A DNA stretch of 42,648 nucleotides from Chthonomonadaceae bacterium. Its GTDB lineage: Bacteria > Armatimonadota > Chthonomonadetes > Chthonomonadales > Chthonomonadaceae. The notes beneath the pieces are model-generated. The model had not been told where the DNA came from and did not search any database. It saw only the letters and a list, made by a program, of their open reading frames with translations. Positions 17,278 to 19,319 of this stretch are shown in pieces. Within the stretch, counting starts at the first letter, position 1. Every line of letters starts with the position of its first letter. The translations under genes were made by a program, and so were the position numbers. The DNA is taken from positions 1 to 42,648 of the forward strand of contig JANXSG010000250.1 of assembly GCA_025352825.1 (NCBI GenBank), given 5' to 3'.

Positions 17278-17529
17278 ATGACAATAAGCGGTAACACTAA
17301 TACTTATAGTAATCTACAGAGCTACAGCTCCAGCGCTGCATTAGACACTAAACCCGCATCATCAGGAGCAGTTCAAGCAGCAGGTGGAAGTCGAGAACAG
17401 AGACTGTCGGATCAACTTACAAACCAACTTAATCAGAAAGTTAGCAGTATTCGACAACAGATCAGATCTTCTTCTCAGGATCAAAATAGCTCTTCCGAAG
17501 TGGGCAGCATTCTAGATATTTCTGCATAA
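17278..17529 (+). CDS. Small Ser/Gln-rich hypothetical protein
   Basis: An 83-residue low-complexity hydrophilic protein, rich in Ser, Gln, Asn and Ala, with no Cys, Trp or Phe and no signal peptide or membrane segment. The centre (REQRLSDQLTNQLNQKVSSIRQQI) could form an amphipathic helix. I do not recognise it; the pattern resembles disordered secretion substrates or anti-sigma-like small proteins, but nothing decides. AGAGGT precedes the ATG and a good terminator follows the stop by 6 bases, so it is very likely a real single-gene transcript. Confidence 0.65.
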   Translation: MTISGNTNTYSNLQSYSSSAALDTKPASSGAVQAAGGSREQRLSDQLTNQLNQKVSSIRQQIRSSSQDQNSSSEVGSILDISA

Positions 17530-17535
17530 CGGGTG

Positions 17536-17561
17536 AGAGGGCCGAAATTCGGTCCTCTTTT
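17536..17561 (+). terminator. Rho-independent terminator
   Basis: AGAGGGCCGA and TCGGTCCTCT form a 10-bp stem (one G-T pair) with loop AAT, followed by TTTT. It ends the 17278 gene. Confidence 0.85.
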
Positions 17562-17605
17562 CCATTTGTGTTCACAAAGATTATTAACAAAAAATTTATC
17601 TCCTC

Positions 17606-17634
17606 TTGTCAAATCTGGCTAACACTGTTATAAT
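17606..17634 (+). promoter_or_regulatory. Strong sigma70-type promoter
   Basis: TTGTCA (17606-17611), an exact 17-bp spacer and a perfect TATAAT (17629-17634). No gene starts within 400 bases downstream. It therefore probably drives the untranslated, hairpin-rich stretch before the BtuD-like gene. Confidence 0.6.
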
Positions 17635-17824
17635 AGCGGTGTAATTAAATTCTGATCTCAAAATTCCATTTCAAATTTAAAATTACGTGTCTGAAATGAT
17701 AAATACAAAATATATTTTCTTCGTTCGCCGGAAGAATCTATTTTAATTTTACAAATTTCGAACGAATGTGAAGGATATTCCGTCTTAATATTGAACTTCT
17801 AAATATTGGAAAATTTAAAGTCGT

Positions 17825-17941
17825 GCTACACCGGCGCGGGGGGCGTTCAGTGTAGCCGTATCCCTTCAAATGTCAGACGTAAGTCTGGCCAGCGAAGGAA
17901 AAACGGGGCGGAGCATATCTGGGGGGATGTTGCTCCGCCCC
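17825..17941 (+). ncRNA. Candidate structured RNA or leader with three hairpins
   Basis: Three hairpins follow one another. Hairpin 1 is GCTACAC/GTGTAGC (17825-17831, 17850-17856). Hairpin 2 is CAGAC-GTAA-GTCTG (17874-17887) with a GNRA-type loop, nested by internal loops in CCTTC/GAAGG (17863-17867, 17894-17898) and CGT/ACG. Hairpin 3 is GGGGCGGAGCA/TGCTCCGCCCC (17905-17915, 17931-17941). The whole is GC-rich in an AT-rich surround and lies between a strong promoter and the BtuD-like gene. No U tract follows hairpin 3, so it is not a standard terminator. It could be a free small RNA, a leader or riboswitch, or DNA-level palindromes. It matches no family I know. Confidence 0.45.
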
Positions 17942-18033
17942 AAATAATTTATGAGGCGCATAGTTTCCACCTCTCCCATCCATATTCTGTACTTTAGTGC
18001 GGCGATGCGAGTACTCACCCAATTAGCAGCGGG

Positions 18034-18039
18034 TATAAT
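18034..18039 (+). promoter_or_regulatory. -10 element just before the BtuD-like start
   Basis: A perfect TATAAT ends 8 bases before the ATG at 18048. If used, transcription would start at or next to the ATG, giving a nearly leaderless mRNA. An AGGA is also present in the gap and would serve longer transcripts from upstream. Confidence 0.35.
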
Positions 18040-18047
18040 AGGATATT

Positions 18048-19319
18048 ATGAACTTAGCTGCAACTAACCTCGAGGCTGGCTATCCCTCTCATCCTGTTCT
18101 ATCCAATATCACAATAAAGTTAGAGCCTGGCGAATTAGTCGGGCTCATCGGGCCGAATGGATGCGGTAAATCCACTCTTCTTAAAGTAATATCAGGAGTG
18201 ATGCCTTCATCGGATGGTGTAGTCCATTTAGAAAATCGAGAGATGTCAGCCTGCCCGAAACATGAAATTGCCCTTAAAATAGGTTTTGTGCCACAAAGCG
18301 AAACAGCAGTCTTCGATTTTACTGTAAGAGACATTGTGCTGATGGGTCGGCATCCTCATCATCGAAATGGAAAATCGAACACTGCCGAGGATTTTGCTGC
18401 TGTGAATCGAGCCCTTGCTGAGACCGACGCAATTCACCTAGCCGACAGACCAATCACACAGCTCTCAGGAGGCGAACATCGCCGTGTTCTTCTCGCACGT
18501 GCTCTGGCACAGCAAACACCTCTCCTCCTGCTGGACGAACCGACAGCTCATCTGGATATTACGCATCAAGTGGAGCTAATGCAGCTATTACTCCGACTAA
18601 CTAGAAGCGAGCGCAAGGTAGGAGTTTTAGCCGCACTGCACGATCTGAATCAGGCGGCAGAATTTTGTGATCGGTTAATTTTGATGCGATCGGGCTCGAT
18701 TTTAGCAGAAGGTGCACCTTCCACAGTCATCAACGCGGCCAGCTTGAGGCGTGCCTACGAAGCGGACATGCGAGTAGGTATTAATTCTTCTACTGGCCGC
18801 CCCATGATTCTTACAATTCAGCCAGCGCGTGCAGAGAGAAATAGTCCGGATGCACACCGAGTACATCTGATCTGTGGAGGTGGGTCTGGAGCATATACGA
18901 TGGGTGCACTTGTTCGCCAGGGCGTCCATGTGACAACGGGAGTACTGAATCGCCTGGACACCGATTGTGATACTGCTAAAGCACTTGAGATTCAGCAGGT
19001 ACTGGCAGAGCCATTTTCGAGTATTGGGCGGGAAGCATTGGCGGAGGCACGCCGATTGATTTTTGCAGCAGATACTACTATTATTACGGATGTGCCTTTC
19101 GGAAATGGCAACGTGCCCAATCTTGAACTAGCAATAGAAGCGCAAGAAATTGGCAAAAATGTTATACTATTAGGCAGTGTAGATATTACATCGCGTGATT
19201 TTACCGATGGTACTGCCACTGAGATGATTTCTCGACTGCTTGTAGGTGGGGCAGTTGAATATCCCAAAATTGAAGATTGGATTGACAACCACTTTCCACT
19301 GGATATATTTGCAAAGTAG
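18048..19319 (+). CDS. BtuD/FecE-type ABC ATPase with C-terminal nucleotide-binding-like extension
   Basis: Residues 1-255 are the ATPase of a cobalamin, heme or ferric-siderophore importer: Walker A GPNGCGKST (35-43), Q-loop VPQSE, signature LSGGE (139-143), Walker B LLLLDEP (159-165) and the H-loop LAALHD. Residues about 270-423 form a second domain beginning HRVHLICGGGSGAYTMGALV, with TTGVLNRLDTDCDTA, resembling the C-terminal extension I recall on haloarchaeal BtuD proteins. Its function is unknown; its glycine-rich start suggests nucleotide binding. The permease and binding protein are absent here, so the ATPase must pair with subunits encoded elsewhere. The product has 423 residues, far above the 250-270 usual for the ATPase alone. 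Confidence 0.88.
   Translation: MNLAATNLEAGYPSHPVLSNITIKLEPGELVGLIGPNGCGKSTLLKVISGVMPSSDGVVHLENREMSACPKHEIALKIGFVPQSETAVFDFTVRDIVLMGRHPHHRNGKSNTAEDFAAVNRALAETDAIHLADRPITQLSGGEHRRVLLARALAQQTPLLLLDEPTAHLDITHQVELMQLLLRLTRSERKVGVLAALHDLNQAAEFCDRLILMRSGSILAEGAPSTVINAASLRRAYEADMRVGINSSTGRPMILTIQPARAERNSPDAHRVHLICGGGSGAYTMGALVRQGVHVTTGVLNRLDTDCDTAKALEIQQVLAEPFSSIGREALAEARRLIFAADTTIITDVPFGNGNVPNLELAIEAQEIGKNVILLGSVDITSRDFTDGTATEMISRLLVGGAVEYPKIEDWIDNHFPLDIFAK

Follow-up and report, generated by a model that had tools for sequence, protein, structure and literature searches.

Contig C284 of the 4.87-Mb genome G000 (Chthonomonadaceae, Armatimonadota), analysed here over a stretch of 42,648 nucleotides that we call the window, carries what is, as judged from sequence, a previously undescribed small RNA gene, which is conserved and single-copy, is preceded by a promoter of its own, ends in a terminator-like hairpin, and contains two invariant runs of six guanines. 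We consider the existence of this structured RNA element nearly certain, and our literature searches turned up no regulatory small RNA described from Armatimonadota. From the evidence below we infer that the RNA is transcribed, that it acts in trans, that its loops base-pair, and that a lipoprotein mRNA is a target. Our main reading, to which we give a probability of about 0.6, is that this "6G RNA" is a stand-alone trans-acting small RNA that would pair through its G6 loops with C-tracts.

Parts of the RNA and predicted fold

The promoter is followed by about 410 nt up to the ATG at 18048, and reading both strands of this interval yielded no convincing ORF. The folding energy of 17640-17950 is -89.3 kcal/mol, as compared to a mean of -69.0 (sd 4.9) in 100 dinucleotide shuffles (z -4.2), with none of the 100 shuffles as good. 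The features of the region, all on the + strand, are as follows.

17606-17634, +, promoter TTGTCA-17-TATAAT, with 11/12 consensus matches and a TG ahead of the -10 box; supported by the promoter alignment
17606-17623, +, TTGTCAAATCTGGCTAAC block, running from the -35 box through the spacer; conserved
17641-17822, +, variable 5' leader, its start inferred from the -10 box; holds an unconserved dyad
17825-17856, +, hairpin 1, GCUACAC...GUGUAGC, with a G6 run at 17838-17843; supported by the fold and compensatory changes
17863-17898, +, hairpin 2, CCUUC...GAAGG; supported by the fold; GUAA tetraloop at 17879-17882 in G000 only
17905-17941, +, hairpin 3, GGGGCGGAGC...GCUCCGCCCC, with a G6 run at 17921-17926; terminator-like; 11/12 pairs changed on both sides, and T-runs
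18034-18039, +, TATAAT, the separate -10 box of the ABC ATPase gene, ending 8 nt upstream of its ATG (18048); outside the RNA; from the sequence

A preliminary description of this DNA had proposed a near-consensus promoter, about 400 bases without a gene, three stems at the 3' end of the RNA, and an end 106 nt before the ATG of the ABC gene, and each of these points was borne out. It had also named an 8-bp dyad, TTCGTTCG/CGAACGAA at 17720-17727 and 17759-17766, and the GUAA tetraloop. Both are present where described and neither is conserved, the dyad lying in a leader that varies and the tetraloop at the apex of a hairpin that varies. At the position of hairpin 2, a hairpin is predicted in most members, with a different sequence and a varying apex, and hairpin 1 begins anywhere from about 14 to 190 nt after the -10 box. 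The conserved part, unremarked in that description, is the pair of GGGGGG loops: the runs of hairpins 1 and 3 are invariant in every member while the stems around them vary. Loop 3 contains GGGGGGA in every member, and loop 1 mostly has GGGGGGC. On the 3' side of hairpin 3, a T-run is present in G001, G008, G011, and G014 and is shorter in G002 and G016, while the window copy has only a weak AT tail (17942-17950).

Distribution among genomes

A DNA search recovered six relatives, which have the two hairpins with G6 loops in common and, in all but G007, the promoter and spacer as well. We built a covariance model from seven sequences (R1) and another from all 16 members (R2) and ran both over 291 genomes of the phylum. 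R1 found a single copy per genome in 15 Chthonomonadaceae genomes, and a sixteenth member, in G006, was located via its promoter sequence; R2 found one copy in each of the 16 members, as expected for its own training sequences. The covariance models and the promoter together thus place the RNA, as a single copy, in 16 of the 17 Chthonomonadaceae genomes, the sole exception being G009, which is 73% complete. Neither model gave a credible copy in the 274 other Armatimonadota genomes, where the best result was a 24-bit match in G209 (E 0.04) that we take as chance. Scanning the GTDB species collection by pattern gave 21 stretches, 14 of which do not fit the covariance model; the seven that do are all Chthonomonadaceae members already found. 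As far as tested, the predicted RNA is confined to Chthonomonadaceae. Since it is kept in G002 (3,437,861 bases, one contig), which we take to be the cultured Chthonomonas calidirosea, it is open to testing; the G002 copy is on the minus strand of C1, at about 2283630-2283800.

Covariation of the stems

Pairing holds in 92% of the cells of the alignment of 16 members, where 17 of the 22 pairs change on both sides. There are 57 double-changed cells, whereas shuffling gives 12.7 and none of 500 shuffles reaches 57, and the covariation score is 0.535 versus 0.09-0.13 when the partners are slid, the slid controls giving 4-15 such cells. This alignment was fitted to the covariance model, and its values are hence biased towards that model. 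Each G6 hairpin was also assessed from a plain alignment of its own: in hairpin 3, aligned with MAFFT, both partners change in 11 of 12 pairs, with 37 double-changed cells versus 8.5, and in hairpin 1, aligned independently, both change in 6 of 11 pairs. Compensatory changes were thus found by the covariance search in relatives that had been suggested as a check on the fold.

The promoter and its upstream side

A promoter scan by itself would be weak proof, since in shuffled sequence the scanner also reports, for each region, about 2 promoter-like sites that score 9/12 or better. The promoter of 6G RNA, including its spacer, is kept upstream of the RNA in every member except G007, and the 18-mer, with at most 2 mismatches, precedes the RNA in 14 genomes and occurs elsewhere at chance level. 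The -35 box and spacer (window 17606-17623) together make up a TTGTCAAATCTGGCTGACAA-like inverted repeat, which resembles an operator to which a dedicated regulator would bind; regulation at the RNA promoter would then run through this TTGTCA...TGACA-like element. A second copy of the repeat lies exactly 143 bp upstream in G005 and G013 (G005:C66:34010-34027; G013:C86:24273-24290). No recurrent further promoter bearing the same element was found. Directly upstream of the promoter, the interval 17278-17559 of the window holds an 83-aa low-complexity Ser/Gln-rich ORF without a Pfam match and, after it, a terminator-like hairpin belonging to that ORF (17535-17559).

Comparison with known RNA families

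At gathering score, Rfam gave no match in the window region or in 11 homologous loci, and nothing credible appeared in 17560-18060 when E was raised to 10. The 6C RNA family (RF01066) was among those without a match, for both strands and at both thresholds. 6S RNA (RF00013) has a match on another contig of the same genome (G000:C264:2895-3075) and none in the region. These scans agree with the preliminary description, which could place the RNA in no known riboswitch or small RNA family; its proposal of a candidate new structured RNA is supported by the covariation together with the absent Rfam match.

The closest parallels are in design. 6C RNA consists of two hairpins with CCCCCC loops (PMC4046766). 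B11 of Mycobacterium marinum has three stem-loops, of which two are homopolymeric (C-rich) and the last is the terminator (PMC12395582), and two-loop redundancy is described for B11 of Mycobacterium abscessus (PMC10470900). In 6C/B11 the C-rich loops serve as seeds, and G-tracts lie in the target mRNA leaders (PMC12395582, PMC10470900). The sX13 RNA of Xanthomonas has three stable stems with homopolymeric apical loops, preceded by an unstructured and dispensable 5' region (PMC3771888). The homopolymer-loop small RNAs that we compared from the literature have C-rich loops, which fit G-rich ribosome-binding regions.

Like 6C/B11 (RF01066) in Actinobacteria, 6G RNA appears to be a stand-alone, strongly structured small RNA of one lineage, with two hairpins whose loops hold runs of at least six of one base, and it shares with the M. 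marinum B11 the arrangement of three stem-loops, two of them homopolymeric and the last terminator-like. 6C RNA itself was rejected as an identification, the loops on the transcribed strand being GGGGGG and not at least six cytosines. Besides this difference in loop base, 6G RNA differs from 6C/B11 in having no Rfam match, in belonging to a different phylum, and in having a conserved promoter element and a long variable 5' leader. As its loops are G6 and not C6, its targets should carry C-tracts rather than G-tracts. With sX13 and other C-rich-loop small RNAs it shares three stems with homopolymeric loops after a 5' region, but its loops are G6 as opposed to the C4-C5 of sX13, and no sequence relation to sX13 was seen. 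It resembles 6S RNA in being a single-copy small RNA kept throughout a lineage, but differs from it in structure, and the 6S match of G000 lies elsewhere in that genome.

Proposed mode of action and candidate targets

Because the G6 loops mirror those of known C-rich-loop regulatory RNAs, 6G RNA probably regulates mRNAs with cytosine runs. As a stand-alone trans-acting small regulatory RNA, it would be made from its own strong promoter and would end at hairpin 3, which would double as the terminator. Hairpins 1 and 3 would supply the seeds, their GGGGGG loops each pairing loop-to-linear-tract with C-rich stretches in mRNA leaders, in analogy to the C-rich loops of 6C/B11 and sX13 on G-tracts. 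One target may be, by a weaker inference, the mRNA of a lipoprotein of about 500 aa, the leader of which keeps five or six cytosines in a row (C5-C6) ahead of the start codon. Only tentatively do we go further, to a new small RNA family with twin G6 loop seeds that would be a reversed-polarity counterpart of the 6C type, with a dedicated conserved promoter element and a C-tract regulon including surface lipoproteins across Chthonomonadaceae. If true, such a conserved G-rich-loop RNA would have C-tracts further up the leader as its targets, and the loop-seed design would exist with both polarities.

Over the 17 genomes, the pattern of a C6 run followed by AGGAGG and ATG matched 40 times, as compared to 16 times for the reversed pattern, while its G6 version matched 23 times and the reverse of that version 16 times. 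Of the seven C6 matches in G000, six derive from a dispersed repeat, which lies around CTCTCCCAAAAACAGGAGAGGAGGTGAC in contigs C51, C114, C160, C209, and C212 of that genome. The recurrent gene outside the repeat encodes the lipoprotein, and was picked by its tract in G001, G008, G011, and G014. Orthologues gathered from protein similarity, and not by the tract, have C6 in G004, G013, and G010 and C5 in G005 and G009. The C5-C6 tract is therefore present in nine of nine orthologues, four of which were picked by the tract itself and five without it, and the orthologue in G011 has two C6 tracts in its leader. As background, 966 leaders sampled from five genomes contained C6 in 8 cases (0.8%) and C5 or longer in 40 (4%); G010 alone has a higher background (C6 in 4/149, C5 or longer in 11/149). 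C-tracts are not a general property of lipoproteins, of which 1 of 18 had one.

By duplex energy the lipoprotein leader comes first among 314 leaders from G008, whereas in G004, G013, G010, and G005 it reaches only the best 3-9%, and the fit between loop and leader is not species-specific. The lipoprotein is absent from G000 and from seven other RNA-bearing genomes, and the target evidence for it was gathered post hoc. Given the moderate ranks, the lack of a species-specific fit, these absences, and the selection of four of the nine orthologues by the tract, we regard the lipoprotein as a candidate target and at most one of several. The C-tract could instead have a partner within the lipoprotein mRNA itself, namely its G-rich poly-glycine codons.

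Returning to pairing by the loops of 6G RNA, we note that loop 3 is altered to UUUCGGGGGGAUGG in G010, where two lipoprotein leaders hold the matching AUCCCCCCG. Sites exactly complementary to loop 3 (ATCCCCCCAGA) pointed to no recurrent gene and lie mostly within or antisense to genes, and none of the C6 tracts of the window (1688, 6700, 36648) is in a gene leader. The lipoprotein family (L125-L130, L134, L135, and L137) has no Pfam match above cut-off. Two further lipoprotein genes, L107 in G007 and L150 in G010, are unrelated and each have two C6 tracts shortly upstream of the start.

Alternative explanations

The RNA might instead bind a protein through its G-rich loops, as a decoy or scaffold that, for example, titrates CsrA, which we consider unlikely. 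The strict conservation of the loops within variable stems fits recognition by a protein, CsrA was found in 16 of the 17 family genomes, and CsrB/RsmZ-type decoys of CsrA likewise have hairpins with G-rich loops. CsrA sites are GGA in hairpin loops, and the GGGGGGA of loop 3 comes near the 3' half of the consensus for CsrA. However, CsrB-type RNAs have many GGA sites, whereas the conserved loops here have at most one, in loop 3 only, loop 1 being mostly without GGA (GGGGGGC). Moreover, the GGA of loop 3 follows a G where A-N is usual, and it is partly paired in the predicted fold. G007 (98% complete, 20 contigs) keeps the RNA and, unlike the other 16 family genomes, gave no CsrA match.

It is highly improbable, in our estimate, that the G6 tracts form an intermolecular G-quadruplex and that a dimer is the working form of the RNA. 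Each molecule strictly retains two G6 tracts and a dimer would have four, but this would leave unexplained both the conserved bases flanking the G6 run of loop 3 and the C-tracts of the lipoprotein leaders.

We give a slightly smaller chance still to a functional RNA on the minus strand. The reverse complement would form two hairpins with CCCCCC loops, as in 6C RNA (PMC4046766), yet Rfam, which scans both strands, gave no match to RF01066. We assign the RNA to the + strand because the T-runs lie on that side and because, in the two stems, G-T cells (15) are more frequent than A-C cells (4); the conserved promoter is also on the + strand.

The ABC ATPase gene next to 6G RNA in the window (18034-19319, -10 box included) encodes an extension of about 170 aa beyond the ATPase domain that Pfam leaves unnamed. 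A TATAAT, TATACT, or TATAGT lies 8-11 nt ahead of the ATG of this gene in G000, G013, and G007, and with such a -10 box of its own the gene looks nearly leaderless and independent. In G000, G007, and G013 the RNA adjoins the ABC ATPase, while its neighbours elsewhere include a polyketide cyclase-like protein (G002), a radical SAM protein (G011), and ThuA (G008), among others, and the adjoining genes are in either orientation among genomes. The preliminary description had implied a link between the RNA and this BtuD-like gene, a link that fails on the differing neighbours, the T-runs after hairpin 3 in several relatives, and the gene's own -10 box. A riboswitch role is accordingly very unlikely. 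The RNA does lie on the same strand as the ABC gene and 106 nt upstream of it, and in G013 and G007 it is near the homologous gene; a leader of that gene acting in cis, as riboswitch or attenuator, is nevertheless hardly credible given the other neighbours in either orientation, the terminator-like end, and the -10 box so close to the ATG.
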